Part shown: in pieces, positions 1 to 43,590 of the stretch
Numbering within the stretch: the first letter of the stretch is position 1
How the letters are laid out: each line of letters opens with the position of its first letter
Source: Miscanthus floridulus
Lineage: Eukaryota > Streptophyta > Magnoliopsida > Poales > Poaceae
NCBI RefSeq assembly: GCF_019320115.1
Contig: NC_089589.1
Span: forward strand, 18,787,641-18,851,640
DNA length: 64,000 bases
Reading direction: 5' to 3'
Notes under the pieces: model-generated
What the model saw: the letters and a program-made list of their open reading frames with translations, nothing else
Databases searched by the model: none
Told to the model about the DNA's origin: nothing
Position numbers and translations under genes: made by a program

Positions 1-1440
1 GCTATTGCTATGGCTTTTGCCTGCACTATGCCTTGCTCCCCCCTTGCGCCCTTGCGCCTTATGCTGACTGAGTTTCTTAAGGGCACGGGGGGAATCCGTT
101 TTTATAGTGGGGTGGTGGCTTTCGGGCGTTAACATTTTTGTACGTTGTTAGGTGGAACGCATCTTGGCTTTAATGGCCTATATGTTGCCTGAATTAATCG
201 TTCTTCTTGAGATCTTTGAAGTAAAGAGGCCTGGCGCCACAGTGGTGGCAGTGTTTTGCCAGGCACTTTCTGTTTTCCTATTACGGATAGCGGAGACCTT
301 TTTCCTAGTTTCTGCGCCACAATTTTGTTTTCCCTAACGCTAGGGTTTTTTTTAGGGGTCGAAGGCCTGTTCCACCGAGGTTGTTGCCCTGATGCCTGAG
401 TTCGGTCAGGTCTTTGTCAATGGTCGGAGGTCTTTTTGGCCGAAGATTTTTGCCTTGAAGCCTGACTTTGGTCAGGTCTTTGTCAAGGATCGGAGGCCTT
501 TTTTGGCCATAGATTTATTCCTTGATGCCTGACTTTGGTCAGGTCTTTGTCAAGGATCGGAGGCCTTATTTGGCCATAGGTTTATTCCTTGATGCCTGAC
601 TTTGGTCAGGTCTTTGTCAAGGATCGGATGCCTTATTTGGCCATAGGTTTATTCCTTGATGCCTGACTTTGGTCAGGTCTTTGTCAAGGATCGGAGGCCT
701 TATTTGGCCATAGGTTTATTCCTTGATGCCTGACTTTGGTCAGGTCTTTGTCAAGGATCGGAGGCCTTATTTGGCCATAGGTTTATTCCTTGATGCCTGA
801 CTTTGGTCAGGTCTTTGTCAAGATTCGGAGGTCTTTTTGGCCGAAGATTTTTGCCTTGAAGCCTGACTTTGGTCAGGTCTTTGTCAAGGATCGGAGGCCT
901 TATTTGGCCATACGTTTATTCCTTGATGCCTGACTTTGGTCAGGTCTTTGTCAAGGATCGGAGGTCTTTTTGGCCGAAGATTTTTGCCTTGAAGCCTGAC
1001 TTTGGTCAGGTCTTTGTCAAGGATCGGAGGCCTTTTTTGGCCATAGATTTATTCCTTGATGCCTGACTTTGGTCAGGTCTTTGTCAAGGATCGGAGGCCT
1101 TATTTGGCCATAGAGGTCATTTCAAATTGCCCTTGCCTATGGCTGGCGCTTTGAAAGGACCTATTTTTTTGTTTACCGAATATTGCGGCACCAGAGCTGG
1201 CCGCTTTCGGTTTTTGGGTTCTATGTGGTGTTCTTTTGGGGAATTACCTCTTTATACTTGTAGATGATTTTTACATTGAGCCTGCCTCGTTAAAACCCTC
1301 ACCTCCGTTTGGAGTTCCCCTGTGAGGAAAAGAGTGCAGGCTCTTTTACATTTTGTTTCGAATGAAGTAAAAAAAACTAAGGTAATTGCATATAGGGGCC
1401 TCCGCTTATATTTTGCGGAGGTTGCCCTTTGGTACATTGC
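1..1440 (-). other. 3' non-coding region of the first Tat element
   Basis: This stretch follows the integrase stop codon on the minus strand. It holds no credible gene. It contains the 67-bp tandem array at 391-1113 and otherwise unremarkable AT-rich sequence. Long 3' untranslated regions with tandem repeats are known for Tat elements. Confidence 0.7.
391..1113. repeat. Tandem array of about 11 monomers of 66-67 bp
   Basis: The phrase GCCTGACTTTGGTCAGG starts at 460, 527, 594, 661, 728, 795, 861, 928, 994 and 1061, with a diverged first copy near 391. Two monomer types alternate: a 67-bp form ending in TTTATTCCTTGAT and a 66-bp form ending in TTTTTGCCTTGAA. Nearly every monomer carries CGGAGG. 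The array lies in the 3' untranslated region of a Tat element, a known source of satellite repeats in plants. Confidence 0.95.
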
Positions 1441-2265
1441 CTAGATGTAGTATCTGTGAAGGCTGTCGATATTCCATGTGTGGGTTGTTGTGACACCTTC
1501 GCTGTCGGTCAAGTGGAAAGAACCAGGTCGGCCTGCTGCCGTTGCTGTGTATGGGCCTTCCCATTTCGGTTGCAACTTACCGACAAGTTGTGCGTTTGGT
1601 TTTCTCCTGAGTACGAGGTCTCCGTGTTTTATGTCTTTCCTTACCACCTGAGAGTCTCTCCACTTCTTGGTTTGTGACTGATATTTTGCAATGTTGTCGA
1701 CTGCTTCCAGTCTGGTGGCTTCTATTGTTTCTTTTGCATACTCTTCATCTTGCAACATCAGCTGGCTTGTTGTGCGGAGGCTTTCGTGCTTTATTTCTTC
1801 TGGCATCATGGCTTCTTCTCCATAGAGCAGTTTGAATGGTGTGAATCCTGTTGTTCTTGAGACGGATGTATTGTGTGACCAAATAACTCTAGGTAGTTCA
1901 TCTATCCATCTTCCTTTGCGTAGGCTCAGCAGTGTCTTTGATATTGCTGAAAAGACTATTCTGTTTGCTCTTTCGACTGCTCCATTGGACTCTGGGTGGT
2001 ATACAGAGGCAAAGGCTAATTTCATCCCTATGCTTTTGTAGAATTTTTTGAAGTTCTCTGAATCGAATTGTTTTCCATTGTCTACTGTCAGGATCCTTGG
2101 TACACCGAATCTGCAAACGATGTTCTGCCAGAAGAATTTTCTGATAGTTTCTGAGGTTATCTTCGCCAGTGGCTTTGCCTCTATCCATCTTGTGAAATAT
2201 TCCACTGCCACTACTGCGAATCTGTTTCCTCCTTGGGATGGAGGTAATGGGCCGACTAGGTCCAT
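1441..2265 (-). pseudogene. Integrase catalytic core and C-terminus, first Tat element
   Basis: A 274-residue frame carries the integrase core. The DDE triad is visible as Asp2 (MDLVG), Asp62 (TVDNG) and Glu98 (GAVERAN), with 35 residues between the last two as expected for retroviral-type integrases. The C-terminal part (GDLVLRR, then WEGPY) matches the usual Ty3 integrase tail. It is in the same frame as the upstream polyprotein but separated from it by a TAA stop at 2275-2277, so the methionine at 2265 is internal and not a real start. It would act in the nucleus inserting element cDNA. Confidence 0.9.
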
Positions 2266-2274
2266 CCCCCATCT

Positions 2275-5200
2275 TTACAGCGGCCATATCGGAGGTATAA
2301 GCTGGGTCTCCGCCGATGGTTTTGACTGTCCTAGAGAGAAAGTTTGGCATGATTTGCATGTTCTGACTATCTGCTCTGCGTCTTGTATGTGTGTTGGCCA
2401 ATAAAAGCCTTGCCTTATTGCCTTTGCTGATAAAGCTCTGGAGCCAATGTGCGACCCGCAGATTCCTGAGTGTATTTCTTGAAGCAATTCTATGCCTTCG
2501 CTCTGCGATATGCATTTGAGGAGAGGCTGGACTACTCCTTTCTTGTACAGTACGCCATTTACGATTGTGTAATTTCTTGCCCTGGCCTGTATTCTTGCTG
2601 CTTTTGCTTCATCTTCTTCGGTTGTTTTGCCTTCTAGGAATTCTGTTATCACCTTTCTCCAATCTTCATTTTGCAGGTGTAGTATGGGCTTTGGTGCCTT
2701 CGATGTCTCCACAGTTGCCGGAGCCTTCAAGATCTGGTAAAAAGTGTTTGGAGGCAGTGGCAGGTTGTTTGCCGCTGCCTTTGCCAATTCATCTGCCTCT
2801 GCGTTTTCTGATCTTGGGATGTGCTTTAGGGTGAAACCCTCGAATCTCCGCTCCATGTTTCTAACAACGGATAGGTATTTGATGAGTTCTGGCTCTCTTG
2901 CTGTGTATTCTTTCTCTACTTGGCCAGTGACCACTTGAGAATCTGTTTTGACTGTCAATGTTTTTGCCCCTAGGGCTTTTGCTTTGCTCAGCGCTAATAT
3001 CAGGCCTTCGTATTCTGCTATGTTGTTTGTTGATTTGAATTCTAGCCTTACTGCGTATTTTAGTCTGACGCCGGAAGGTCCCGTTAGGACAGCGGAGGCT
3101 CCTGCTCCAGCTTGGCCCCAAGCTCCATCCGTGAGTGCTATCCAGCCTTGAGCTGTAGGTTGCGTCTTGGGCTCTGTCGGAGGTGTCCAATCTGCTACAA
3201 AATCAGCTAATGCTTGTGATTTGATTGCTGTTCTGGGGACATATGAGATTCCAAACTGTGATAGTTCTGTAGCCCATTTGCCTATTCTGCCGGAGGCTTC
3301 TTTGTTTCTGAGCAAGTCTTGTAGTGGCAGAGATGTTGGAACTGAGATTTCGTGGGCTTGAAAGTAATGCTTTAGTTTTCTTGATGCCATCAGCACTGCG
3401 TAGGCGACTTTTTCTACCTCTGTATAGTTTAGCTTGGCTCCGAACAGTGCTTCTGAGATGAAATAAACTGGTTTTTGAGTTTTGCCTGATTCTTTTTCCA
3501 TCTCGTGGACTAAAACTGCGCTGACCGCATGGTCGGAGGCCGCCACATACAGCAATAGGTGGATGTCCGATTCTGGGACGGAGACCATCAGTGAGTTTGT
3601 CAGATACTCTTTCAAGTCATGAAATGCCTTCGACTGCTTGGGCCCCCATTCGAAGTTGTCTCTGCCCCTCAGGGCTTGGAAGAAGGGTAGGCTGTGTTCT
3701 GCTAATTTTGAGATGAATCTATTGAGCGCTGCTATTCTTCCCGTTAGCTTTTGTACTTCCTTCTTGTTTTTGGGCTCTGCCATTGCTATTATTGCTCTGG
3801 TTTTGTCCGGGTTTGCTTTGATGCCTTCGCTGCTTATGATATAACAGAGCATTTTCCCTTTTGTAACTCCGAATATACATTTCTCTGGGTTGAGGCGGAG
3901 GCCTGCTGTCCTAAGGTTGGCGAAGGTTTCCTGTAAGTCAGAGACATGATCGTCCTTGTTCTTGCTCATGACGACTATGTTGTCGACATAGGCTATGATG
4001 TTTCTATCTAGCTGTGATCCCAAAACCTCCTTTGTCATTCTGGCGAAGGTTGCTCCGACGTTCTTTAGTCCCTCCGGCATTCTGGTGTAGCAGTATGTCC
4101 CGAATGGGGTGGTGAAACTTGTCTTGTCTTCGTCTTCTTTTTTCAACCAGATTTGGTGATACCTAGAGAAACAGACGAGGAGGGAGAACCTCTGGCATCT
4201 GGCTGCCTTGTCGACGGAGGCATCTATTCTTGGCAATGGGAAGGGGTCTTTCTTGCAAGCTTTGTTCAGATCTGTGAAATCTATGCACATTCTCATTTTG
4301 CCATTTTTCTTTGGTACCAAGACTACGTTTGCGAGCCATTCTGAGTACTTGACTTCCCTGATCACTTTTGCATCTAGCAATCTTTGCACCTCCGCCTTTG
4401 CTGCCAGGATTCTATCCTCCGACATTTTTCTCTGTTTTTGCTTTCTTGGTCTCATGTTTTCGTTGATATCCAGTTCGTGCTGTATGATGTCCCTACTGAC
4501 TCCCTGGAGGTCGGAGGCTGACCAGGCGAAGATGTCCTTGTTTTTTACTAGGGTTGCCATGAGCTCTTCCTCTTCTGCCTTGCACAATTTTGAGCTGATT
4601 GTTACTTTTCTGTCCGGTAACTCTTTTTCTAGAGGGGTCAGCTTTGTCTCTTCTTGACCTGCCATATCTGTTTCTCCTTTGGGCATGTCCGGAGGCTCTA
4701 GTTCTTTGTTCGCCGATTTGACTGCATTGATGTTTCTTTGGGCTCTGTAGATAGCTTTCTCTATGTTTCTTGCTTCTTTCTGGCTGCCTTGAACTGTGAT
4801 AATGCCATGGAGTGCTGGTATCTTCATGCACAGGTAGGCCATATGCAGTGCTGCGTTGAATTTGGTTGTAAATCCTCTGCCCAAGATGGCATTGTATGGG
4901 TAATACAGATCGACGACGTCGAAGGTTATGTACTCGGTTCTGGCATTCGCTTGGGTTCCGAACGACACTGGGAGTGAGATTTTTCCTAGTGCTTGTATCT
5001 GCTTGCCTCCGAATCCTATTAAAGGGGATTCGGAGGGTTGTAGTTGATTTCTGCTGAGCTTCAGTTGGTCGAACGTATTTGCGAAGATGATATCTGCCGA
5101 GCTGCCTGTGTCGACCAGTATTCTGCTTATCTCCCATGCTGCTATGTTTGCCTTGATCGCCATTGCATCTGTGTGAGGGTAGCTTTCTAGCTGGACATCT

Positions 5201-6081
5201 TCTTCTGTGAAGGTGATTGGGACTCTGGACCAATCTGTGTGTTTCGCCGGGCCTTGGACTGCTACATTGTTTACCAGGCGGAGGTGATCTTTTTTCTGCT
5301 TTTTCATTTGAAACTCCATCGATGATCCTCCGGCGATTGGCAATATCATGCCTATTGTTGGCAGTGCTCCATGAGGGTTGACTTGGTTTTCTGGGTTTGG
5401 CTCGTTTTTTGGTGTTGCGGGCTGGTTGTGTGGTGGTGGCGGAGGCAGTTGCTGCATGTGGTGCTGTGGCTGCGGAGGCTCGAACCTTATTCGGTTTTGC
5501 TCCGGCGGGTTTGTATCGAGGTAGGTTATATGGGGAGATTTTGGGTTTATGTAGGTCAGGCTTGCCTCCGACCTGTAGTTGCTCGCCGGAGTCTGCTGCG
5601 AGGGTGATGACCGCCATGCTGGTAAGAAGTTTGGGTAATAGGCAGAGGCCAGTGTGGAGGGATGTATTTGTGTTGCGTTTAGCGCTGGGTACATTGGGCA
5701 GTACTGCTGGTGGCCAGTTGTGTATGTGGTGTTGACCTCTCTTGCGCTCTGCTGTGTCGGAGGTTGGGCAGTCTGCTTGTTCTTCATCCTTTCTTGTGTT
5801 TCTTTTGTCTCCGGACAATCTTTGGTGCTGTACCCTGCGTTTTCGCCGTGAAAGACGCAATATGGCTTGCGTTGTTTCTGGCTTTGGTTTCTGTTCCAGT
5901 TTTTTCCTTGGTAACCTTGGCGACCTTGGTTCCTTGTTTGGTTCTCCGGCCGTGTTGGCGCTGGCTGTTGCCCTTGCTCGTGTTGGGGTTGACCCTCGAT
6001 ACTGAGCACTTGTCCGGTTCGAGCCCCACGGTGGGCGCCAATGTTGAAACTAGAGGTTTCAACCTGCGTGGCGAAGACCAA
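2275..6081 (-). pseudogene. Gag remnant, protease, RT, RNase H, second RNase H, integrase zinc finger
   Basis: A 1268-residue frame. The first 28 or so residues read through the LTR end and primer binding site, so they are not a real start. A basic gag C-terminus with a CVFHGEN...DC cluster follows; the gag capsid is absent. Protease shows DTGSSAD near residue 324. Reverse transcriptase contains [10 protein letters not shown] and, at residues 698-701, YVDN where YVDD is expected; the Asn codon is at 3979-3981. RNase H follows, then a second RNase H starting near ALTDGAWG (about residue 985) with [14 protein letters not shown]. The frame ends after the integrase HHCC finger (near residue 1210) at TAA 2275-2277. 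The element is not autonomous. Confidence 0.92.
6016..6040 (-). promoter_or_regulatory. Primer binding site complementary to tRNA-Lys
   Basis: On the minus strand this starts TGGCGCCCACC one base after the LTR end. All 25 bases are complementary to the 3' end of plant tRNA-Lys(CUU) as I remember it, including the T-loop (GGTTCGAG). It sets minus-strand cDNA priming and fixes the inner LTR edge at 6042. Confidence 0.8.
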
Positions 6082-18039: not shown

Positions 18040-18360
18040 GTCTTGTGACCGGATGCTAGGTCTCGGACGGATCGGACACTAGAAGGCAGCGTCCGGTCAG
18101 AGCCGATGTAGCAGTACCGAGATCAAGGAGACTGACCGGACGCGTCCGGTCAAGATTTGCCGTCTCTAGGAGCTTACTGTAAATGACCGGACACTGGGGG
18201 TTCAGTGTCCGGTCACATCTGCCACAGCGTCCGGTTGTTTCTCGACCGTTGAGATCAGCTGGCTGTGGTTGACCGCAGAGGGACACGTGGCTGTCATCAG
18301 GCGACTGGACGATGGGTCCTGCGTCCGGTCAATCTGACCAGAGCGTCCGGCCAGCCCGTG
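18040..18360. repeat. Dispersed GCGTCCGGTC motif cluster in LTR
   Basis: At least seven full or near copies of GCGTCCGGTC or GACCGGACGC in both orientations within 320 bp. Matching clusters are at 38620-39010 and 60000-60390 in the 3' LTR copies. Confidence 0.8.
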
Positions 18361-26220: not shown

Positions 26221-26986
26221 TGTTGACACCGTTTTTTGCACGTGTCAAAATGATCAGAGTGGGCTAATCGGCAGGAGGAAAGTTACTGTATACGCTGACA
26301 GCCGATGAAAATCAGCTTGTAAAGATGGTTGCCGATGAATGGTGGTGATCGATGGAAAGGTTGATTTAGACTCGGGCGTTGCCGATAAGGTTGGAGATGT
26401 TATTGTCGATGCCGATGAAGGAAGGCTTGAAAACTACTGCCGATGAAACAGGAAGTATGCCAATGGAAAGGAGGTCGGTGAGAATTCCATCGTAATTGAG
26501 GCGGACAGGGAAATAGATAGGAGTTGATTTCCTTTTCTATATTTGTTAGAGTATGATTCATGTAAGAGTCACGTGTTTCCTTAGATATGGACTTGGTGTT
26601 CTAGTCGTATTTGGTTATGTCTCTTTAGATCAGGGTATAAATATAGATTGAGGGGCAATGTAATATATATCAATCAATATCAAAACCAATTTTTACTCCT
26701 ATTTGCATCTACTTACTTTTCGGCAACTTCGTCAATTTGCATATTTTTTCCTTTTTACGAGTTCTCATTGATTCGGCGAGTTGCATCGCTTCAGTGTGAC
26801 CTTCGGCGATTCTCGAGTTCCGCGTGAGTACCTCTTGGCCGTGACTTCTGGGCGTATCGCTATTGTCAGGACCAAAGTGCTCGTATCTTCATCCTTGTCG
26901 ATTAACAGGTCAAATCGACTGGCACGCTTTGGATATCGATTCGGGTATTAGCCCTTTGTGTTTGCAGATCCACTTTTGCATCAACA
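26221..26986 (+). mobile_element. 5' LTR of second Tat element
   Basis: 766 bp, TGTTGACACC to GCATCAACA. TATAAATAT lies at about 26635-26643, followed by the leader. Six copies of GCCGAT or ATCGGC are present. Confidence 0.95.
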
Positions 26987-26993
26987 CATCTTT

Positions 26994-27010
26994 TGGCACG
27001 CCTAGTGGGA
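26994..27010 (+). promoter_or_regulatory. Primer binding site of second Tat element
   Basis: TGGCACGCCTAGTGGGA begins seven bases after the LTR end. The TGG start and position fit a primer site of the type seen in related Tat elements; I do not assign the tRNA. Confidence 0.6.
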
Positions 27011-27028
27011 CAAATCAATCCGATCAAT

Positions 27029-29830
27029 ATGTTCAATCCCGAGATCGATTCAGGGAACATTATCGCGGTATCAGAAGATCTTAAGGAAGAGCAGAGGCAG
27101 GCCATGGAAAAGGCTATAGAAGAATACAGGCAGCTTTGTCTGAGATCGTTTAGCCTGAACAAGAGTGGACAAGTCATCCAGAAGCAAGATTTGCCGTTTC
27201 CTCGGCAGGTTACCTTTGACTCTAATCCTGGTAAACTTCAAGAGATGGTTAATTCTGCAGTAAATCATGCTTTGATTAATCATTCCAATGTGCTGTCCAA
27301 TACTGTTCATAATGCTGTGGTTCGAACTCTCAAAGAAGGACAAGCGTCACCGCATTACGTTGGGCCTGCCTATCACCAACCAGAGCCGGCATCTGTCAAT
27401 ACTCCATCGGCTCCCTCGGCAGTTGTGGGTACAGAAGTTACTTCTCCTCCAGTATCGGCAGGCTTACCTAATATTCAATCTACACCGATACGATCAGATC
27501 TGGTACTACCAGGAGGACGAGTTCAGCTTAATACAGATCTATTGGCATCAGCTATGTCAGGCCCTGTGTCTCAGAATAGCCAGATTCCTGCTAATTGGTG
27601 GGGATATGGTATGCCTCCGGAGTCATCTGCTTTCAATCCTGGGTTACCTCAAGTGTTTGATGCAGTAGGAAAAGCTCCTATACCATCGGCTGTTTCGCCG
27701 ATGGCTCAAGTGCCTCAATATGCCACAGCAACTACTGTGCAACCAACTCCAGGAGGTTTCCAGATGCCTTTGGTTCAAACACCCAATTCAAGTCCATCGG
27801 CAAGCTTACTGCCGATGCAGCAGAAAGCCCCTGCTATGAGTCAAACTGGGGTTCAGTTCATGCCTCAAGCTGGTTATAATTATCCAACAATGTCAGCAAA
27901 TTACCAGCCATCGGTAAGTTTTGTACCGATGAGTTCTAATAATGGTTGGTCAGGACAGTTACCTGTTCAACATACAGTTCAGCAAAATCAGTAGGTTGCA
28001 GGGATTCAACAAGGTCATATGCAAGCTGGTTTCTAGAATCAAGCATCGGCAGCTCAGCCGATGAATCCTTTCCAGCAGGTTAATGGACCACAAGTAACGG
28101 CAAATATGCCGATTGCTGGAGATCGTGGGCCACAAAGATATGTGGAGGGATATCAGTAGGTACCTCCTGTAGAAATTCAGCCAGTTCGTCAGCAGGAGGC
28201 TGATGCTTTTTGGGCCGATAAGATAGCAGAAATTATGAAGGATCAGTTTGGGATAAAGCCCAAGGTCAATACTTATTCTTATCGGACTCCATACCCTCCT
28301 GTATTTGATTTAATTCCTCTCCCAAATCGGTACAAGGTACCAGATTTCACTAAATTCTCTGGGCAAGATGATACATCAACAATGGAACACGTCAATCGCT
28401 TCATTATTCAATGTGGAGAGGCAGCTAGCAGAGATGAATTAAGAGTTCGATTATTTTCATCATCTTTGTCTGGATCGGCATTTACATGGTTCATTTCATT
28501 ACCACCAAATTCTATTATTACTTGGGCTGATCTAGAAAAACAATTTCATAAGTATTTCTTTGCTGGAATCCATGAAAAGAAGCTTACCGATTTAGTAAAA
28601 TTGAGACAGCGTAATGATGAATCGGTAGAAAGCTTTGTGCAAAGGCTACGAGATGTAAAAAATAAGTGCTACAGCCTGGTGCTGGATGATCGACAGCTTG
28701 CCGATCTGGCTTTCCAAGGGTTATTGCCACATCTTAAAGACAGATATGCTTCTCAGGAGTTTGAAAGCCTCAGTCATCTTGTGCAAAGGATCTCTGATCA
28801 AGATACTAGGGTTTTTGAACCTAAAAAGAATTGGAGTAAAAAAGTATCATTTGTTGAAGAAGTAGGAGATTCTGATTCTGATGAAGAACCAGTTATCGGC
28901 TTAGCTGAGTGGGTTAAGAATAAAAAGCCGATATCTTGTCCCTTTGGTCAGAAAGAGCCAGAAAAGTTTACCTTTGATATCACCAAGGCCGACAAGATAT
29001 TTGATCTTCTGCTTCAAGAGGGCCAAATTAAGCTGTCACCTAATCATGTGATCCCATCGGCAGAAGAGTTGAAGAAGATCTTGTACTGGAAATGGCACAA
29101 TGCAACTTCACACAGTACAAATGAGTGCAAGGTGTTCAGGCAACAGTTACAATCGGCTATTGAATCTGGGAGAATTAAGTTTGGTACTTCCAAGGCCCAG
29201 AAGCCGATGAAAATTGATCAACACCCTTTTCCAGCAAATATGTTGGAGGCTAAAGGGAAGACCAAGGTATTGACGTCAGAGGCTGCTGAGAAAAACGCAT
29301 CAGTGGATCCCCAACATCAGATAACTACCGATGATGCAAAAAGTAAGGGTTTGCTGGGAGAAAGCAGTAGTTCCAAAAACCCTCCTCGACCTGGCATTAT
29401 GATTACCCATCGAAGGCAGCAGGAGGGTTGGCGTCAGCGTAAGGACCGATATCGACAACAGCAAGAAGAGAGACGTCGGGAAGAATGGTATCGGCATAAA
29501 GATCATTGGAGGTGCCCGTTTTTCATCCATTGCTAGGAAGAAGGTATTAAATTGCCAACTGTTGAAAATTGCCCTGAGTGCAATGGTTATTATGGGGTCA
29601 ATCGGTCAGAAAGGAGGTTTCAACCTGGCAATCAGGGTTTATTTATCAATGAGCCGATCAGAGGCAGAGCATCAGTGCATGATCGGCTGGGGGCAGACTT
29701 AGTGTACATGAGAGGCTTGGTAAACGCGCTGGATATTTTCCAAGGAATCAAGAGGAGCTTGAGGAGATGGCAAACGCAAGAGTTCCCGATGAAGAAATAT
29801 TCTACAGGGACCCTAATATACGCCGTGTAG
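27029..29830 (+). pseudogene. Gag of second Tat element, four in-frame TAG stops
   Basis: The ATG at 27029 follows the primer site. An N-terminal region and a proline/serine/glutamine-rich linker come first, then the capsid-like retrotransposon gag domain (about 28320-28800: FTKFSGQDDTSTMEHV, then TWADLEKQFHKYFF). A basic C-terminal region (RRQQEGWRQRKDRY) and a Cys/His-containing segment (NCPECNGYY) follow. One frame is interrupted by TAG at 27992, 28034, 28157 and 29534, then breaks near 29700-29830. Gag would form the cytoplasmic particle; this copy cannot make it. Confidence 0.88.
27683..28063. repeat. Cluster of four perfect hairpins in gag
   Basis: CCATCGGC/GCCGATGG at 27683-27704 (loop 6). 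CATCGGCA/TGCCGATG at 27795-27817 (loop 7). CATCGGTA/TACCGATG at 27909-27931 (loop 7). CATCGGC/GCCGATG at 28044-28063 (loop 6). The third hairpin differs from the second at one position on each arm yet still pairs. At protein level each encodes a P-S-A/V...P-M type repeat. Confidence 0.95.
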
Positions 29831-30752
29831 AATCAACTGGGACCTGTTATCAGCCGGTTTGGAAAACCAAGTTTCCTCGATGGTGCCCGGAGGGTCTGAC
29901 AAAGACACAGAAAAGGAGGATGCAACGTGAGCATCAGGAGGATTTATACCGAGAGGAAAATTCCTCCAATGAGAGGTCTGGTCATCAGCAGTGGCAGGTA
30001 AAACACAAAAATAAGGGTCCATCGGCAGATGTTAATATGGTATTCATGTTGCCGATGGAGTTTTTGGCACTATCTGATAATGAGGAAGAAGTTGTTCTCT
30101 CTGATCAAGTAGCTCAGTTGACACTAGATCCAATGATGGCTGTTTTTGAGAAACCTACCGATGACGAGAGACAACATCTTAAGGCTTTGTTTGTGAAAGG
30201 CAGAGTTGATGGGCAGCCTGTATCTAAGATACTTATCGACGGAGGGGCTGCGATTAATATTATGCCTTATGTGATGTATCGGAAACTTGGTAAGGGAGAT
30301 CAAGACTTGACCAAAACCGATATGATGCTGAAGGATTTTGAAGGCAATGTGTCACCGGCTAAAGGGGCAGTATGCGTTGAATTGACCATCGGCAGCAAAA
30401 CCTTGCCGACGACGTTCTTTGCTATTAATGGCAAGGGTGCATATAATCTGCTTCTAGGGAGGGATTGGATTCATGCTAATTGTTGTGTTCCTTCTACAAT
30501 GCATCAATGCCTCGTACAGTGGATTAGGGATAAGATTGAGTTTGTCCCTGGTGATTCTTCTTATATCATCGCATCGACAGAATCAGATACTTATGAGCGA
30601 ACTAAATGCATATCAGGAGAAGTTTGGGAAAAAGAGTTCCTTAGAGTTGCTGATTATGAAATTCCACCGATCCAAGCAGTCGGTTCTGAAGAAGAGTTTT
30701 AATGGATAGGTTTGCCGATGATGGAAAATTAGGTCAAGGGTTCACATCGGCA
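28894..30752. repeat. Further GCCGAT-core inverted pairs in gag-pol
   Basis: TATCGGCTT/AAGCCGATA, 28894-28902 with 28925-28933. AGCCGATCA/TGATCGGCT, 29652-29660 with 29680-29688. CCATCGGCA/TGCCGATGG, 30019-30027 with 30050-30058. TGCCGATG/CATCGGCA, 30713-30720 with 30745-30752. In each the bases flanking the core are complementary as well. Confidence 0.93.
29767..30702 (+). pseudogene. Gag end and aspartic protease of second Tat element
   Basis: A 311-residue frame. The first part continues the gag C-terminus in a shifted frame. The protease has ILIDGGAAINIMP near residue 157 and LLGRDWIH later. The active-site triplet is D-G-G where D-S-G or D-T-G is usual, so activity is doubtful without comparison with relatives. 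The frame ends at 30702, one base out of frame with RT. Confidence 0.85.
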
Positions 30753-32768
30753 GATGATTTAGTAGAAGTAGATATTGGTGATGGCGATGGGCCAAGACCT
30801 ACTTTTATTAGTGCTAAGTTAGATTCCAAGTGTAAGCAGCAAATAACTGATTTGTTAAAAGAGTATAAAGATTGTTTTGCTTGGGATTATACTGAGATGC
30901 CTGGATTAGACCGATCGATAGTTGAACATCGGTTACCTATCAAATCTGGATTTTGGCCACATCAGCAGCCAGCGCGCCGATGCAACCCTAATATACTTTC
31001 TGACATTAAGGCCGAAATAACTAAATTAATTGAGGCAAAGTTTATTCGGCAGTGTCGATATGCAGAGTGGATCTCTAATGTGGTTCCTGTTTATAAGAAA
31101 AATGGAAAACTTCGTGTTTGTATTGATTTCAGGAATCTCAACAAAGCCACACCGATGGATGGCTATCCAATGCCGATTGCTGATTTGTTGATTGATGCTG
31201 CAGCCGGACATCAAATTATCAGCTTCATGGATGGTAATGCAGGTTATAATCAAATATTCATGGCTGAAGAAGATATTCCCAAGACTGCTTTCAGATGTCC
31301 AGGTCATGTAGGGTTGTTTGAGTGGATAGTCATGACGTTTGGTTTGAAAAATGTCGGCGCTACTTATCAAAGAGCTATGAACTTTATTTTTCATGAATAC
31401 ATCGGCACATTAGTGGAGATCTACATTGATGATGTAGTGATTAAGTCTGTAGATATCACAAAACATCTAGCCGATCTACGAAAGATACTAGAGTGCACAA
31501 GGAAGCATGGATTGAAGATGAATCCTAATAAATGTGCATTTGGTGTATCGGCAGGTCAATTCTTGGGTTTTATGGTGCATCAGCGGGGCATCGAAATCAG
31601 TAGGAAGTCTATTGATGCAATTAACAAGGTGGTTGCTCCTGCCAATAAAACTGAATTGCAATCTTTGATCGGTAAGATTAATTTCATTAGAAGATTCATA
31701 TCTAATCTGTCGGGTAAGATCAAGGCTTTCAGTCCATTACTTAAATTGAAAGCCGATCAGGAATTTGTATGGGGAGCTGAGCAGCAGTTAGCCCTAGATG
31801 AAATTAAGAAATATTTAACAAATCCTCTAGTGCTAGTTCCACCTCAACACGGGAAACCTTTCAGGTTGTATTTGTCAACTGATGATACCGTTATCGGTTC
31901 AGCTCTTATTCAAGAATTTGAAGGGAAAGAACGTGTTATTTATTATTTGAGCAGAAGATTAGTGGATGCTGAGACAAGGTATTCGGCCATCGAAAAATTA
32001 TGTCTGTGTTTATACTTTTCTTGTGTCAAATTAAGACATTATTTGTTATCTGCCGAATGTACGGTCATATGCAAAGACGACGTAGTCAAGTATATGCTGT
32101 CGATGCCGATATTAAGTGGTAGAATCGGCAAGTGGATTTTAGCATTATCAGAATTTGAACTACGTTACGAATCGACTAAGGCAGTTAAGGGGCAAGTTAT
32201 GGCTGATTTTGTCACTCAGCATTGTAATATAGTGGACTCTCTGGAGGTTGCTCCTTGGACACTTTTCTTCGATGGGTCCACATGTGGTGAAGGAGCAGGT
32301 ATCGGCATTGTGTTGATTTCACCTCAAGGAAGGAAGTATGAGTTTTCATTGCCGATTGTTGCTACATCGACAAACAATCAGGCTGAATACCAAGCCTTGA
32401 TAAAAGGGTTAGAATTGCTGAAGGAGATACATGCCGATGCTGTTGAAATCTTTGGTGATTCTATGCTAGTTATAAATCAATTGGCTAGGATTTATGAATG
32501 CCGAAGTGAAGTTTTAATTTCGTATTATGAAAGATGTTTGCAACTATTGAAAGGGTTTAGAGATTTTTGTCTTGAACATATTTCTCGACTGCATAATGAG
32601 GAGGCTAATCGACTAGCTCAGCATGCTTCAGGGTATCAGCCTATTCAGGAAGTGCTAACATCGGCAGTCGATACCGATGACTGGAGAAAGGAGATTGTCG
32701 ATTATTTAAAGGATCCATATAAAAAGGTTGAAAGACGTATAAGGTTCCAAGCTACCAAGAGTGTGTAG
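30702..32768 (+). pseudogene. RT, RNase H and second RNase H of second Tat element
   Basis: A 688-residue frame. RT motifs include LRVCIDFRNLNKATP and the catalytic YIDD at residues 241-244. The RNase H connected to RT follows (YLSTDDTVIGSAL...YYLSRRL), then the second RNase H that marks Tat elements (LFFDGSTCGEGAG, NNQAEYQALI, FGDSMLVINQL, HNEEANRLA). The catalytic residues look intact. It stops at 32766-32768 after RIRFQATKSV, where a deletion has fused the second RNase H to the middle of the integrase finger. Converts element RNA to DNA. Confidence 0.92.
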
Positions 32769-33818
32769 AGCGCATCAATCGGCTTTCAAGATGAAGTGGA
32801 TGATCAGAAGGAATGGATACTATTGGCCGACTATTCTTGAAGATTGTTTTAAATATTTTAAAGGATGTCGGGGGTGTCAAAAGTTTGGTAATATTCAAAG
32901 AGCGCCTGCATCGGCTATGAACCCTATAATTAAACCTTGGCCGTTCCAGGGATGGGCTATCGATCTCATCGGTCAGATTTATCCGCCATCGAGCAAAGGA
33001 CATAAATTTATTCTGGTTGCTACCGATTATTTCACAAAATGGGTTGAGGCAATTCCTTTAAAAAAGGTGACATCGGCTAATATGATCGATTTTGTGAAAG
33101 AGCATATTGTTTACCGATTTGGTATTCCTCAAACTATCACTACCGATCAGGGTACTATGTTTACATCGGGAGAATTTGATGAGTTTACTGTAGGTATAGG
33201 AATTAAAGTTTTAAATTCTTCTCCATATTATGCTCAAGCTAATGGTCAGGCTGAGCTTCTAACAAAGGGATCATCAAACTCATTAAGCGCAAAATTAAAG
33301 AAAATCCTAAGAGGTGGCATACAGTATTAAATGAAGCCTTGTGGTCATATCGGATGTCATGTCATGGTACAACCAAAGTAACGCCTTATCAGTTAGTATA
33401 TGGACACGACGCAGTATTGCCTTGGGAAATTAAAGCTGGCTCTAGGCGAATACGTTCTCAAAATCAGCTGACAGCCGATGATTATGATACTCTTATGAAG
33501 GATGAGTTGGAAGATGTGGCGGGTCATCGGTTAAGGGCTTTAGTTAGCATCGAAGAAAATAAGAAAAGAGTAGCCAGATGGTATGACAAGAAGGTGAAGG
33601 TAAAGGAGTTTGCCGATGGAGATCTGGTCTGGAAATTGATTTTATCGATTGGGACTAAAAGTTCGAAGTTTGGAAAGTGGTCTCCTAATTGGGAAGGTCC
33701 ATATCGGATAAATCAGTCTGTTCCTGGTAACGCATATATTCTAGAAACCCTCGAAGGGGTTGTGTTTCCCAGAGCATTAAATGGAAAATATTTAAAGAAA
33801 TATTACCCTAGTATCTAG
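32761..33818 (+). pseudogene. Integrase of second Tat element, missing part of zinc finger
   Basis: The frame from 32761 begins inside the HHCC finger: the first histidine region is gone, while the CRGCQ end remains. The core has Asp68 (AIDLIG), Asp129 (TTDQG) and Glu165 (GQAEL), with 35 residues between the last two. The frame breaks near 33265, and the C-terminal part continues at 33339-33818 in another frame (LVYGHDAVLPWE, WEGPYRI, then stop). The finger deletion and the frame break both disable it. Confidence 0.88.
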
Positions 33819-33840
33819 ATGGATGCATAAAAGTATAAGT

Positions 33841-33861
33841 GCCGATAACAGTCCTATCGGC
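33841..33861. repeat. Hairpin GCCGATA/TATCGGC after pol
   Basis: Seven-bp perfect stem with a seven-base loop, 22 bases after the integrase stop, between the convergent sense and antisense genes. It could act as a terminator-like or boundary structure, but it is one of many in the element. Confidence 0.9.
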
Positions 33862-33916
33862 TAAAATTATACAAGGATGTCAATGTCTCATAAAGTGCTG
33901 ATGCAATAGACAAGAT

Positions 33917-36900
33917 TTACAAGTTTAATAAGGATTGGATAGCCAATATCGCACGCAGGCGAATCTGGTCGGCTTCCTTCATTTCTTTGATGTCTTCATC
34001 GGCAGCACCCTCCACAGGCTTGAGTTTTTTCTTCATGGCCAAGGCTTTGCGAGCCTGGATGTCTCTTTCTTGCTGAAGGGCCTTGATGGCATCGGGTAGC
34101 TGGCTTTCTTCTTGTTGGGCATGAGTTAAGGCTGCCTCGACTTCTTTCAATTCAGCCAATAGAGCCATCCTCTTTGCCGATAAATCTAAGATTTTCTGCT
34201 TAAGTTCAGCGTCCGAAGTCTGCAAGTTGCCGATGCCCTTGTGCTTCTCATCGGCAATCTGTTTCAGTTGTAGCATCTCTTCTTTGAGTTGAGCCTGAGC
34301 TGCTCTATCGGCAATGCGTTGAGCAGCCCGTTGATATTGCAGTTGGCGGCTTTCTAAATGGGCTGCTGGGAAGAGTGCTTCTTCAACATCGGCAGGGACC
34401 TGGCCACGGATTGTTTTGAAAATTGCCTTTGCGGGGTCCGAGTCATCTACCAGTTGGGCGGTATCCTGCTGTAACAAGTCCAGGAGAGCTTCCAACTTGG
34501 ACTTAATTTCTACCGATATTGTTCCCAGTGCAAGGGAAGAACTTGTTTCCTCTCCATCATCGTCAGAAACGTCAATGGCAAAGGAAAATAGGTTGTTTGG
34601 GGAATCTTGTTCCTGAGAAAAAGAAAAAGAGGTCAGTTAAGGATAAGTATGAATATTATAAATCGACTAGGTCAATCGGCTTACCTGTTTCAAGGCAATT
34701 TCCTGTACTTGGCGGGAGGAAGCAGCCTGGAGTATGCCGTGTGGAGGATCGGCTGAGCTTGCCGATGGGATATCCTCTGTGGCCTCATCGGTGGTTGGCC
34801 CTTGGGGTATGATGACCGATGGTATGTCCTGTACAGGAGGATTAACTGCTTGCTCAGTTGCATCGACTGATTCTGGCCGACTTGCAGACGTTGGGGCAGA
34901 TGTGGGGATCGGCATGGACTTCTGTCGTTTTGGCTGTGCCTCGGCATCTGTTAAGGCTTTGCGCTTTGCTTGGGCCTCAGCAACGGTTGGCTGGGGGGCA
35001 TCGGCACTTGTTGGTTGTGGAGCTTGAACATCTGGTACGCTTGCCGATGTACCCATTTATTGCTGCAAAACAAGTGTAAGGTATGATATTTAACAGATAA
35101 AATGTAAAATCAAAGGAATACCTCTGAAGGTTTGTCAGAGGTAGTGGTGCTTGATGTCGGAGGAATTGCCGATGACGATCCAGCAGCGGCTCTTACACCC
35201 TGATGATTAATGTTAATACAGTTTGTGATCGGCATGAGTAGAAATAAACAGGGTTGTTACCTTGAATGCCTTGATCAGGGTTGTAGCAGCAGCCAATGGA
35301 GTGGCCCTAGCTGTAGCCAATTTGGACTTGGAGGTGATGGTCTTGGCACGGGTCTTCTGGTGAGTCAAAGCAGCTAAGGTGGGGGCGTTATAGCCGATCG
35401 GTGATATCGGGGAAACAGGCCGAAGATCGAAGGGTTTCCCACTTTTGCTCATAGATGGTGCTGGGTTGTTAACCTGTCACGAGAAAGTTAGTTACCGATA
35501 TATGAAAGGAAAAAGCAGAAGGGAGTTAAAAGAAACTTACTGCGTCATCGGGAATGGCGTATTCAGAGTCGATCATGTGCCAATATGTGTGAGCAGATGT
35601 TGCAAACAGTTGTTCCCTCCACTCTCGCCACCATTGCTTATATGATTCGGTGATGAAAGATGCTGGCGTCCAGATGGATATATCGACATCTGTAGTATCG
35701 GCATCGGGGGAGAGTCGCACTACCCTGCTCCAATCTATTCCGCAGGTGATTGTTTCTCTGGGTTTGATCACATCGGCAAAACAAAGTTTGATTGGCAGTT
35801 GCCCAAAAGCCAATTGACGGGATACTGCCGATGGATTGTAAAATTCATATGTGATATTGGTGTTTTTCCCACTACCAAATGTGTTTACTGGGATTGCCCT
35901 GGGAGTAATGATGGCCATCATGAGTTCATTATCTTGATTCAGAGTGTCATCGGCAAAGTTGAAAAGAAGGGGGAATCTATTTTCTTTGTCAATATAAGGT
36001 ACCCAGGCCCTATGATCACGAGAAAGACCATTGTAGAAGCTTTGGAAGAATCTGCCGATCTGGTCTTCATTGGCCTCTGTTCCAGGGAGGACAATTATGG
36101 CTTCACCAAAATTGAGGGGTGAGCGTGTTGCCGATTCCTCATCCCCAAGCACGTGGTCTTCAGCAATTTCTCGTGGGAATTGTTGGGCAAAGAAGTCCCA
36201 TTGCAAACGTTTGTGCATATGGGCATTCAGCCACATGTTGATAAACCACCACGGTCCTCCTAAGTTGCCGATGGGTTCGCCAAGCAAAAGTTTCTGAGAC
36301 ACTTGATGAAGAAGATGATAAGTGGAGCTCAGAAGGTATCGGCCAAGAGGGAACCTTATACCATTGGCCAAGAGTTCAGCCGCGGGGAGGAAGGCGTTGG
36401 TTGGTCCTACTGATCGACCACAGAAGATAAATTTTTCTAACCATATATTCAAGAATGTGACATGTTCCGTCTGGTTAACTGTCCCGGTCCTCTGGCATTC
36501 TTGAATATATCCCGTCCAACCGCCGATGTTGCGGGTATTCACCCTATATTCAGATTTTCTGCCATAGATGGAGCCTTCATCGGCAGTTGAAATGTCCAAG
36601 CCAGTGAGCATGTAGACATCGACAAGTGTGGGAGTAGCTGGACCATGTCCAAACATAAAAGTGTTTGTTGTGTCTGACCAGAAGTAAGCAGCTGCAATCA
36701 TCATTGACTCATTCTTTTGCATATCAGCAATGGATAGCCTAATGCATTGGTCTAGCTTCCGTTCTGCCTAGTGTACTTGCATCGACCTGTTGACCCTCAA
36801 GTACCAATCTTTCCACCCTTTGGTGGTTTTGGGCCAAGATCGGAATGTATCTTTCCATAAATTCAGAGAGAAATTTTGGGCTCTAAAAGGGATTCTGTTA

Positions 36901-37256
36901 ACCTCTGCATTAATCAGATCAGTTGGATCTGGGTTGCACATTGGTCCTAGGCATTGGAAATGCGGCTGATCGGTTGGAATAACTAATTTGTTGCGAAGTT
37001 CCTAAGTTTAGAGGATCCGAAGAACAAAGAAAAAGAGAAAAATTACCAACTGTATGAACTCGCAAAGACCAGAGGAATCGAGGTAAAAAGTAACGGAAGT
37101 GGAACAAACCGCAGGGACGTCGAAGTTGATTGCCATTATCTTGAGGTAGATGGGGGCACGAGCTGGAGACTCGAGGTTGACGCTAGAGAAAAGTTCTTGT
37201 TGGTTGAGGTCACGCAGTTGTTCGTCGGAGTCGCCGCCGGAAAGAGAGAATGCCAA
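33917..37256 (-). pseudogene. Antisense spliced gene: plant mobile domain plus coiled coil
   Basis: Minus-strand gene, ATG at 37256, six predicted exons: 37256-37047, 37001-35541, 35473-35261, 35199-35122, 35062-34685 and 34612-33917. Every intron is GT-AG and every exon length is a multiple of three. Exons 1 and 2 encode the plant mobile domain (PMD, as in MAIN/MAIL1 and in some transposons), with FPLGRYLLSS and GPWWFINMWLNAHMHKRLQW. Exons 3-5 are a low-complexity linker. Exon 6 has a long coiled coil (LKEEMLQLKQIADEKHKG). Two in-frame stops, TAG at 36768-36770 and TAA at 35057-35059, disable this copy. A TATA box lies 45 bases upstream of the ATG. Role in the element is unknown; PMD proteins in plants act in silencing and expression control. 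Confidence 0.85.
34227..34257. repeat. Hairpin TTGCCGATG/CATCGGCAA in antisense exon 6
   Basis: Nine-bp perfect stem, 13-base loop, inside the coiled-coil exon of the antisense gene. It shows the motif is not confined to the sense genes. Confidence 0.93.
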
Positions 37257-37300
37257 AGATTGGAGTCTGAGGGTAGAAGACGAGCATTCCGAAGAAATCT

Positions 37301-37307
37301 ATTTATA
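37301..37307 (-). promoter_or_regulatory. TATA box of the antisense gene
   Basis: TATAAAT on the minus strand, about 45 bases before the ATG at 37256, leaving a short leader. Internal to the element and independent of the LTR promoter. Confidence 0.65.
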
Positions 37308-37737
37308 AGCCGCTTGGAGTAGGGGTATTCTGGACTTATCTCTATGCCGCGCGCATGTGGGTCGAGGTGGTTCAGATGGATATGGTAACTGTTCGCACGA
37401 TAATCAAGGGATTGTACAGATGATTTGATGGCAAGTAATCATGACTTGGAAGAGATCTCGGTACAGGATATTTTAATTCTGAAAATGGCGGCATTATTAT
37501 GTTAGGATCTTGCCAATGGATTATTGTTTCGGTATCTTAACCATAATCAGGGCAAGAGTGGTTGGAAATTGTGCGATATTTACTGAGGTGCGTGAATCAG
37601 GACTAGATTTGATTAGATTTGATAACAGATCAAGTTTTGGCTTGGAGGATGAGTTACGGTAATTGGGCGAAGGCAAACGTTATCTGGAGTAAATTTCGGA
37701 GCATTAATGGTTTTATACTCCGAAATTGGAGGGCATG
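37308..37737. other. Region between antisense promoter and 3' LTR
   Basis: No gene. The last bases before the LTR include AAATTGGAGGGCA, which may be a weak polypurine tract for plus-strand DNA synthesis. Upstream control sites of the antisense gene would lie here. Confidence 0.5.
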
Positions 37738-38503
37738 TGTTGACACCGTTTTTTGCACGTGTCAAAATGATCAGAGTGGGCTAATCGGCAGGAGGAAAGT
37801 TACTGTATACGCTGACAGCCGATGAAAATCAGCTTGTAAAGATGGTTGCCGATGAATGGTGGTGATCGATGGAAAGGTTGATTTAGACTCGGGCGTTGCC
37901 GATAAGGTTGGAGATGTTATTGTCGATGCCGATGAAGGAAGGCTTGAAAACTACTGTCGATGAAACAGGAAGTATGCCGATGGAAAGGAGGTCGGTGAGA
38001 ATTCCATCGTAATTGAGGCGGACAGGGAAATAGATAGGAGTTGATTTCCTTTTCTATATTTGTTAGAGTATGATTCATGTAAGAGTCACGTGTTTCCTTA
38101 GATATGGACTTGGTGTCCTAGTCGTATTTGGTTATGTCTCTTTAGATCAGGGTATAAATATAGATTGAGGGGCAATGTAATATATATCAATCAATATCAA
38201 AACCAATTTTTACTCCTATTTGCATCTACTTACTTTTCGGCGACTTTGTCAATTTGCATATTTTTTCCTTTTTATGAGTTCTCATTGATTCGGCGAGTTG
38301 CATCGCTTCAGTGCGACCTTCGGCGATTCTCGAGTTCCGCGTGAGTACCTCTTGGCCGTGACTTCCGGGCGTATCGCTGTTGTCAGGACCAAAGTGCTCG
38401 TATCTTCATCCTTGTCGATTAACAGGTCAAATCGACTCGCACGCTTTGGATATCGATTTGGGTATTAGCCCTTTGTGTTTGCAGATCCACTTTTGCATCA
38501 ACA
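37738..38503 (+). mobile_element. 3' LTR of second Tat element
   Basis: 766 bp, the same length as the 5' LTR, differing at about ten positions by eye, nearly all transitions. Followed by the duplication ATATG at 38504-38508. Confidence 0.95.
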
Positions 38504-38508
38504 ATATG

Positions 38509-40014
38509 CTGACACATGTGCGTAAGGTGATACACTTAGTGGTTGGCACATTTGAGCAAGGGTGAAGAAGATAGAGATTAAAGAGGGTCAGTCTCGCTGT
38601 TTCACAAAGTGACCAGACACTGGTCTTAGGGGACCGGCGCGTCTGGTCAGGCGTGGCAGTGAAAACCTAGCGTCGGTCTTGTGACCGGACGCTGGGTCTC
38701 GGACTAACCGGACGTTGGAAGGCAGCGTCCGGTCAGAGCCGATGTAGCAGTACCGAGATCAAGGCGACTGACCGGACGCTGGCTGCGTCCGGTCAAGGTC
38801 GACCAGACGCGTCCGGTCAAGATTTGCCATCTTTGGGAGCTTACGATAAACGACCAGACGTTGGGGGTTCAGCGTCCGGTCACTTCTGCCGCAGCGTCCG
38901 GTCGTGTCTCGACCGTTGAGATCAGCTAGCTGTGGTTGAACGTAGAGGGACACGTGGCTGTTATCGGGCGACTGGACACTGGGTCCTGCGTCCGGTCAAT
39001 CTGACCAGAGCGTCCGGTCGGCCCATGTTGTGCCCAGTGAAGGGGTACAACGGCTCTATTTCATGGGGGCTTCTATTTAAGCCCCATGGCTGGCTCAAGC
39101 TCACTCTCTTGGCCATTTGCATTGACATAGCAACCTTGTGAGCTTAGCCAAAGCCCTCTCACTCATCTCCATCATTGATTCATCATCATTGTGAGATTAG
39201 GAGAGAATCCAAGTGCATTGCTTGAGTGATTGCATCTAGTGGCACTTGGCATTCGTGTTTCGCTGCGGGATTCACTTGTTACTCTTGGTGGTTGCCGCCA
39301 CCTAGATGGCTTGGAGCAGCGAGGATCGTTGAGCGGAGGTTGGTGATTGTCTCCGGCTCCGATCGTGGTGATTGTGAGGGGTCTTGTGCCTTCCCCGGCG
39401 GAGAGCCGAAAGGTAACTCTAGTGGATTGCTCATGTCATTGAGTTACCTCACTTGTGGGTAGGTTCTTGCAGTGTCCAATTGTGTGGACGAGGTTCGTGC
39501 AACACCTCTTAGCCGCCGAACCACCAAGTGTTGTTCGACACAACGGGGACTAGCATGCCGGCAAGCACGTGAACCTCGAGAGAAAAATTGGTTGTCTCTT
39601 GCCCTTTGGTATTCTCCCGGTGATTGATTTAGTATTCATCTTGTGATTGGTTCACTCCTCTACACAGCGGTATAATCACCCTACTCACTCATTTATATTC
39701 TTGCAAACTAGTTGTGGCAAGCTCTTTAGTGTAATTAGAATTGAGTGCTTGCTTTGTTATTTTAAGTTCATCTAGTGGAGCTATTTAGAGTAGCAAGATT
39801 GAGAGCTCTTAGTGAGTAGTAACATTGCAAGTTGTGTGCCTAGTAATCATTGCAACTAAAATTGTTGGATAGGTGGCTTGCAACCCTTGTAGAGCTAGAG
39901 CAAGTTTGCATTTCGCTATTTGTCATACTAATCAAATTGCTCTAGTTGATTTGTAGATTTTTTTTAAATAGGCTATTCACCCCCCCCCCCCTCTAGCCAT
40001 ATTAGGACCTTTCA
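38509..40014 (+). mobile_element. 3' LTR of copia, second part
   Basis: Resumes the copia LTR at CTGACACATG and ends CCTTTCA at 40014, followed by ACAGG. Contains the GCGTCCGGTC cluster (38620-39010) and a run of 12 C near 39981-39992. Confidence 0.93.
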
Positions 40015-42924: not shown

Positions 42925-43590
42925 TGCCGAGTGCCAGAGGCACTCGGCAAAGGAACAAAAACACTCGACAAACGGTTTGCCGAGTGTTACACTCGGCATA
43001 CAGCACACGGCATTGATTTGTCGGCAAACAGTAGTTTGCCGAGTGTTTTTTATCGGGCACTCGGCAAACAGTTTGCCGAGTGTCAATAAACACTCGGCAA
43101 AAATAAACTCTCGGCAAAAAAAATTTGACGGGATGGAACGATGACGTCGATTTTGCCGAGTGCACCATGGAAAAACACTCGGCAAAGTTTCTCAAGTTTG
43201 CCGAGTGTCAGGAAGAAAACACTCGGCAAAATTTCTCAACTTTGCCGAGTGTCAACACGAAAACACTCGGCAAAGTTCCTCAAGTTTACCGAGTGTCAGC
43301 ACCAAAACACTCGGCAAAGTTTGTAAACTTTGCCGAGTGCCACGTCCATAACACTCGGCAAAGTTTAGACACTTTGCCGAGTGCCATTCCTAAAACACTC
43401 GGCAAACAAGCGAGCTACGGTCAGATTTTATGGTCACTTTGCCGAGTGTCCATTGGAATACACTCGTCAAAGCCAAAACACTCGGCAAATAAGGTTCCCA
43501 GAATGATAGAAAATGGTCTCTTCGCCGAGTGTTTTACCTTGACACTCGGCAACTCCTCTGTTTGCCGAGTGTTACACTCGGCGAAGCGAC
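42925..43590. repeat. Left subterminal repeats, CTTTGCCGAGTG units
   Basis: More than 20 copies of TTTGCCGAGTG or CACTCGGCAAA, largely in alternating orientation, so that they form many short inverted pairs. Confidence 0.95.

Follow-up and report, generated by a model that had tools for sequence, protein, structure and literature searches.

Why would a retrotransposon carry the same six-letter DNA word again and again, within its genes as much as between them, and on both strands? The question is raised by a long terminal repeat (LTR) retrotransposon, here called element A, at positions 26221 to 38503 of a 64,000-nucleotide stretch of the Miscanthus floridulus genome (contig NC_089589.1, positions 18,787,641 to 18,851,640). 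We refer to this whole stretch as the window, and unprefixed coordinates are positions within it. The word is GCCGAT, or ATCGGC on the other strand. What is new here is that, as comparison of copies indicates, the word is under selection; that this is purifying selection acting in family A seems to us almost certain.

The earlier note had estimated by eye about 80 copies in element A where about 6 were expected, which proved close: we counted 81, against 4.39 from a dinucleotide expectation. They comprise 42 GCCGAT and 39 ATCGGC, and the remaining 51.7 kb of the window hold 14. Counts for each open reading frame (ORF) and strand bore out the described spread over LTRs, gag, pol and the antisense gene. 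The word is the top-ranking hexamer of the element (z 34.7), and a longer form, CATCGGCA, occurs 32 times against 0.35 expected. Among 82 listed sites, one of which lies just outside the element, the preferred form is CATCGGC(A/T), with C preceding in 45 and A or T following in 77. Codon-preserving shuffles of five ORFs, which the note had proposed as the analysis on which its claim might fail, gave a mean of 7.05 copies and a maximum of 14 (n=300) against 41 observed, and codon usage or the encoded peptide is thereby ruled out as the cause of the word. The first base of these 41 copies falls at codon position 1 in 17 cases, position 2 in 3 and position 3 in 21, so the protein constrains placement, yet the word does not represent one dipeptide. 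Open frames hold 6.67 copies per kb and the rest of the element 6.42, and the family maintains roughly one copy every 135 bp across LTR, genes and spacers.

The case for selection comes from related copies. Ten further family members, of 104 listed, were compared with element A over positions 33900-36780. Of 249 site-by-copy comparisons, 231 showed the motif site of element A intact; the proportion was 73% for 335 control hexamers with one CG and 72% for 68 control hexamers of the form NNCGNN, with the CG in the same place, and none of 20,000 resampled control sets reached the value of the motif. In a symmetric count, in which each copy served in turn as the reference and a site was required in another copy (comparisons that are non-independent), 0 of 5842 A/T bases were changed in the motif against 2.0% in the background. 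The corresponding changes in motif and background were 3.0 and 7.0% in CG, 2.1 and 3.6% in CHG, and 0.3 and 2.4% in CHH context (H, any base but G). The lack of change at the A/T bases points to selection, rather than to a low rate of methylation decay alone. At four positions a site is present in 6-10 of the 10 copies and element A differs from it by one transition, so part of the near-miss words in element A are decayed sites.

A more distant comparison is offered by subfamily F, four copies (L043-L046) that are 89% identical to element A and differ from it by a synonymous divergence (dS) of 0.41-0.44 in the antisense gene, which encodes a plant mobile domain (PMD). Over 33.9-36.8 kb, 19-20 of 25 motif sites are kept in two F copies, against 21-22 of 66 controls, and over the 5′ 7.6 kb of one F copy 42 of 48, against 110 of 174. 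If only positions held by two or more copies of a group are considered, 25 are common to A and F, 5 are found in A only and 6 in F only. Within the PMD gene, none of 12 four-fold degenerate sites in motifs is changed in F copies, against 31-39 of 153-155 outside, and among codons for the same residue motif third positions are changed in 0-1 of 20. The LTR of one F copy has four extra motif sites in U3, inside a stretch that is absent from the alignment of A; three of these are probably new units, and the fourth may correspond to a site that has decayed in A.

Relative C (L024/L029), which was found at a fixed position, is further removed, its reverse transcriptase (RT) being 65-73% identical to that of A. 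Over 2475 aligned columns with 69% identity there are 14 sites in A and 10 in C, with only 1 position in common. The word is thus retained although its positions turn over.

Element A has the following parts, each line giving coordinates, strand, identity and basis.

26221..38503, plus strand: element A, a Tat-type Ty3 LTR retrotransposon of 12,283 bp (LTR alignment, ATATG target-site duplication on both sides, motif counts).
26221..26986, plus strand: 5′ LTR, 766 bp, TG...CA (alignment with the 3′ LTR).
26267..26444, no strand: six motif sites clustered in U3, five of which share one orientation at intervals of 28-50 bp (motif positions).
26445..27405, no strand: motif-free stretch comprising the remaining LTR, the leader and the start of ORF1 (967-bp gap between site starts).
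27029..27994, plus strand: ORF1, 321 aa, 6 motif copies (ORF; Pfam scan).
27685..27702, no strand: example of a close inverted pair of motif sites, 8-bp stem, loop of 6 (pair scan).
28235..29536, plus strand: gag (Retrotrans_gag, PF03732), 8 motif copies (Pfam).
29767..30702, plus strand: aspartic protease region (gag-asp_proteas), 3 motif copies (Pfam).
30702..32768, plus strand: RT, RNase H and second RNase H-like domain, in the order RVT_1, RT_RNaseH, RVT_3, 14 motif copies (Pfam).
32743..33818, plus strand: integrase region, two overlapping open frames in A (tblastn matches to elements with Pfam rve).
33917..35056, minus strand: two antisense open frames, 239 and 129 aa (open frames).
35526..36722, minus strand: antisense gene encoding a plant mobile domain (PF10536), 10 motif copies (Pfam, E 7.5e-21).
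36585..37783, no strand: motif-free stretch in A reaching the 3′ LTR (1205-bp gap between site starts).
37738..38503, plus strand: 3′ LTR, six motif sites at 37784-37981 (LTR alignment, motif positions).

The Pfam scan assigned no family to ORF1 or to the 239- and 129-aa antisense frames. Element A is young, and its LTRs differ at 11 positions (1.4%); 10 of the changes are transitions, and two of these lie in motif sites. It is inserted into a copia-type repeat, a second copy of which, without the insert, is found at about 59872-59877. In pol, RVT_3 (residues 523-642) lies downstream of RT_RNaseH (384-485), and we infer that it corresponds to the aRH domain of PMC6317226. Such a second RNase H is in accord with a Tat-type Ty3 element, as are the antisense ORF between pol and the 3′ LTR, the near-identical TG...CA LTRs and the 5-bp target-site duplication. 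Viral contigs queried with the PMD and RT of A yielded no relatives. In the motif-free stretch before the 3′ LTR, sites 36618 and 36723 are decayed in A and kept in most other copies read, which were covered to 36780.

Between the motif-free stretches the sites of A are spaced more evenly than random (coefficient of variation of gaps 0.73, p 0.002-0.005), and bin tests gave p 0.006-0.14; in both measures the empty ends were left out, or the range was picked after seeing them. A test in 500-bp bins over the whole internal region gave p 0.056. Two variant words are also enriched in A, ATCGGT (29 copies, 6.8x) and ATCGAC (25, 5.8x). Between A and F, ATCGGT is kept in 44 of 56 cases, ATCGAC in 14 of 30 and the full word in 122 of 147, and thus ATCGGT may be a tolerated form and ATCGAC may mostly represent decay. 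Over the whole 2.68-Gb assembly, ATCGGC has 513,014 forward matches against 384,079 for the reversed letters, in line with a high-copy family.

That neighbouring elements have few copies of the word, as the earlier note observed, is correct for GCCGAT/ATCGGC: the two parts of a neighbouring Tat element, B, have 4 and 2, four stretches of another element, D, have 3-5 each, and two copia stretches have 1 each. The observation did not extend to words in general, however, as element B has a word of its own, CCTCCG/CGGAGG.

1441..5787, minus strand: element B, pol of a second Tat-type element with the word CCTCCG/CGGAGG (ORFs, codon shuffles).
390..1114, no strand: tandem array in B, 67 bp x 10.9, ten units with CCTCCG (repeat scan).
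L009:5453-6448, antisense: Transposase_28 gene of B (Pfam).

In 4.3 kb of ORFs of B, CCTCCG occurs 21 times against 2.24 in codon shuffles (maximum 7), and where B extends to the left into L009 it occurs 41 times against 6.8 expected in 6 kb. The Transposase_28 protein of B had 121 scored matches in the genome. At the right end of B (6042-7026), a partial LTR in normal orientation is followed by an inverted one, 97.6 and 97.7% identical to L009:3946-4678, an arrangement that is perhaps the product of autointegration or rearrangement.

Element D (L032/L027, with further copies L016 and L011), whose LTRs are 98.95% identical, also carries an antisense Transposase_28 gene (Pfam). Its word, CGACCA, occurs 32 times against 4.5 expected in L027 and 34 against 5.2 in L016. 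It is kept in 88 of 98 cases in the LTR-gag part, against 69% of one-CG hexamers, and in 26 of 29 in the pol part, against 82% (no significance was computed for either); three of four other words tried were kept less than CGACCA in the LTR-gag part. Among eight gypsy stretches, the top pol hexamer exceeded the 95% level of the codon-shuffle null only in L016, L024 and L027, and in L024, a copy of relative C, this hexamer is ATCGGC. No comparable word is found in the copia ORFs of the window, where CAAGAA reaches z 5.2, barely above the shuffle maximum of 4.8. In sum, a private word is firmly shown for A, F and C, and is strongly indicated in B by excess and in D by excess and keeping. Not all gypsy elements show one.

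L019 (C2:5000000-5009999), a relative of D that is about 68% identical in pol, has 15 CCGAGCA and 11 CCGACCA, possibly a one-letter word change in progress, though non-significant in pol. We had considered L019 as a separate family, E, with the word CGAGCA, and rejected this, since the word is non-significant in pol and its z of 8.7 is within the range of other stretches.

The window contains other short repeats. Arrays of ACACTCGGCAAA at 43085-43406 and 54645-55013 are presumably the subterminal repeats of grass CACTA transposons, and CACTA-type transposase domains (Transposase_21, Transpos_assoc) are encoded at 48694-50906. Clusters of ACCGGACGC, on both strands, lie in the copia-type repeat at 18089-18343, 38684-39010 and 60053-60380, with 5, 9 and 9 copies per about 0.3 kb.

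If a protein reads the word, the antisense gene of A is the first place to look. The PMD gene is, by codon comparison, under purifying selection: dN/dS (the ratio of non-synonymous to synonymous divergence) is 0.06-0.08 against the four F copies and 0.13-0.42 against the ten close copies, with few changes in the latter. None of 14 copies, ten of them pre-chosen as stop-free, has a stop in the compared part. Genome-wide, 6215 candidates included 104 scored PMD matches of at least 94% identity, A among them. The open PMD frame of A (35526-36767) has 413 codons and many listed copies have 491, so A probably lacks an N-terminal part in this frame. In Arabidopsis, the PMD proteins MAIN and MAIL1 are required for silencing of transposable elements and are tied to a promoter 'DOWN' motif (PMC7156037; here and below, papers cited by accession are represented by parts of their text). 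These belong to the same domain family as the PMD of A, but are host genes. The link to silencing and to a promoter motif makes a DNA-related role plausible but is no proof of binding.

Several known systems resemble the word of A in part. DNA uptake sequences of Neisseria, Haemophilus and Pasteurellaceae are short words found on both strands through coding DNA, with lineage dialects and inverted pairs. The word of A shares each of these properties, although uptake sequences belong to bacterial genomes and to transformation, and involve no transposon. The subterminal repeats of CACTA transposons are bound by the element-encoded TnpA, and likewise bring together repeated short sites and a protein encoded in one element, but they are confined to the ends and used for excision. 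A closer parallel is the VANC system of Arabidopsis VANDAL transposons, in which a word is dense in one transposable element family and relatives have other words; motif density is said to matter for localisation, loss of methylation spreads over the element, and the words are found chiefly in noncoding tandem repeats of a single orientation (PMC5735166, PMC10398659). Similarly, the word of A is enriched in its own family and rare in the other loci compared, relatives have differing words, and in the U3 cluster of A and the tandem arrays of B and D the word recurs as in VANC arrays. On the other hand, VANDAL is a Mutator-like DNA transposon and A an LTR retrotransposon, and no VANC-like protein was identified in A, VANC homology not having been searched.

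Among LTR retrotransposons, Retand and Ogre elements have a second RNase H, a long region between pol and the 3′ LTR and an antisense PMD or Transposase_28 ORF, as found here; Transposase_28 is predicted to bind DNA, and family-specific tandem arrays are reported (PMC11963269, PMC6317226, PMC7264820). Of Ogre elements 57% carry PMD, and 23% of Retand elements carry Transposase_28 (PMC6317226). The represented parts of the three papers differ from our findings in that they describe no dispersed word, and the open-licence literature that was searched, likewise represented in part, yielded no such word system in LTR retrotransposons. Plant genomes commonly contain Tat elements, whose antisense genes are described as lacking an established function (PMC7264820, PMC11963269), and whether LTR elements shape methylation through proteins that they encode is posed as an open question (PMC12844716).

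Some sites of A also stand in inverted pairs. The earlier note had counted at least nine close stems, and a systematic scan found 13 canonical inverted pairs within 40 nt, namely 11 internal pairs and one LTR pair that is present in both LTRs. The number of close inverted pairs is in mild excess over random placement (p 0.038). Their orientation is more striking: internal canonical pairs within 40 nt are 11 inverted and 0 direct (two-sided binomial p 0.001), and 24 inverted and 11 direct if the two variants are added, against 63 inverted and 83 direct pairs for other frequent hexamers of A (words not of CG type). LTR pairs are mainly direct, and close-pair counts show no inverted bias in B or D. 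The F copies share the bias of A: in one of them, 9 close internal pairs are inverted in L047, and L043 has 2 inverted and 1 direct, counts that are not independent of A. Stems reach 7-10 bp in 10 of the 11 internal pairs, but the claim that flanking bases also pair is only weakly upheld (1.7 against 1.2 bp beyond the core, p 0.07), and such pairing is presumably due in part to the preference for the longer form CATCGGCA. The variant stem CATCGGTA/TACCGATG, described as keeping its pairing, is present at 27910/27925 in A; an F copy, however, has CATCGGTA/TGCCGATG, so the matched variant is not retained there. More generally, ten stretches compared show no covariation of stems, only changes in a single arm, both arms broken, or no change. 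A single arm differs between A and F at 27910/27925, both arms are broken in F at 34229/34250, and at 35156/35168 arm 35156 exists in F only. The absence of covariation counts against the stems, not against the word, and the unit under selection looks like the single site. For the uniformly inverted orientation of close pairs in A, possible causes are a protein that binds as a dimer and tolerates variable spacing, or a minor mutational route.

These data bear on two explanations in which pairing itself is central. The word could work in RNA or single-stranded cDNA, its hairpins serving packaging, dimerisation or protection. The all-inverted pairs and their stems would fit this, but 47 of 69 internal sites have no canonical partner within 40 nt, loops range from 6 to 26, B and D lack an inverted bias, the stems do not covary in the ten stretches compared, and flank pairing is weak. 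RNA packaging, one of the functions suggested in the earlier note, is also unsupported because the word is equally present on both strands and occurs in LTRs and antisense genes. We therefore consider a role in RNA or cDNA improbable. Alternatively, the word could be written by mutation and have no function, through hairpin template switching during reverse transcription or through gene conversion. In favour of this, 8 inverted pairs are of the same variant where 3.0 would be expected (p 0.006, with LTR duplicates included), and the inverted partner 35156 stands next to site 35168 in F only. Writing, however, gives no resistance to loss, so it does not account for the unchanged A/T bases and for retention far above controls, and most sites stand alone; this is the least credible of the explanations considered.

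In two further explanations a protein reads the word, but it is a host protein or acts at another stage. A host transcription or chromatin factor, a different one for each family, could bind sites that the element exploits. In U3, the clustered sites of one orientation precede a TATA-like stretch, an arrangement that resembles an enhancer, and the commonest longer forms of the A and D words have a CCGA core in common; CCG cores are recognised by plant AP2/ERF factors. An enhancer, though, would not need 69 internal sites, equally dense in gag, pol and antisense genes and on both strands, and the single copy in each of two copia stretches also argues against a host factor, which we hence judge unlikely, if less so than the other alternatives. 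The word could instead be a self tag on cDNA, recognised by Gag, integrase or an accessory protein for nuclear import or integration. Dispersal over both strands and coding DNA, family words and inverted pairs give it the anatomy of uptake sequences, but retroelement cDNA is normally recognised via its LTR ends, and we give such a tag little more credence than the RNA or cDNA hairpins.

The best reading remains the one in which the word marks target sites of an element-encoded protein, as the earlier note had proposed by comparison with VANC. Site conservation, the turnover of positions and the different words of other elements agree with it, and we infer the binding itself. Since the word is selected on both strands, in coding and noncoding DNA alike, recognition of double-stranded DNA by a protein is the likely basis, and we are fairly confident that the word is such a target. 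That the protein is encoded by the element is a proposition towards which we lean only slightly. In this model, a sequence-specific protein would bind the dispersed sites on the double-stranded DNA of A; it would be made by the element, the conserved antisense PMD protein being the first candidate; and, bound along the body and in U3, it would mark the element's DNA as self. It could then counter silencing or activate transcription, as VANC does for VANDAL transposons, an outcome that we put forward tentatively by analogy. This explanation as a whole seems to us evenly poised between right and wrong. A wider generalisation is more speculative and rather doubtful at present: many Tat elements might carry a private word every 100-300 bp, read by an antisense PMD or Transposase_28 protein, with word and reader co-evolving by family, such that each element would turn on or protect only its own kind.

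Several observations weigh against the best reading. Words of A fill coding DNA on both strands (42:39), unlike the noncoding arrays of VANC; we thus say only that the system may work like VANC, and do not class it as VANC. The word is missing from about 1 kb spanning the LTR end and leader of A, and spacing is random in D (p 0.34, 0.75), and of the two parts of B only one has even spacing (p 0.02, 0.52). The ten close copies were all selected for absence of internal stops. With regard to the candidate reader, a PMD profile search of the PDB gave no match, two AlphaFold2 models were unusable (pLDDT, the model confidence score, 42 and 41), and direct DNA binding by PMD is not described in the represented part of PMC7156037; moreover, A has PMD while B and D have Transposase_28, so no single known domain accompanies the words. 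Among the eight gypsy stretches, L019, L022, L023, L028 and L032 have no pol hexamer above the 95% null level, the pol word above it in L016 and L027 is GAGCAG, and CGACCA in L016 pol (12 against 3.7) is just below the threshold. Finally, CCGAGC is kept as well as CGACCA in the D alignments (28 of 32 and 10 of 11).

The finding that already stands is that the coding sequence of a retrotransposon is under selection for a DNA word, independently of the protein. A selected word that is private to a family offers the antisense proteins of Tat elements a concrete candidate ligand. If the wider generalisation holds, coding sequence would carry a second, DNA-level code under selection. If the proposed explanation is true, anti-silencing that depends on sequence, so far known from one group of DNA transposons, would extend to LTR retrotransposons.

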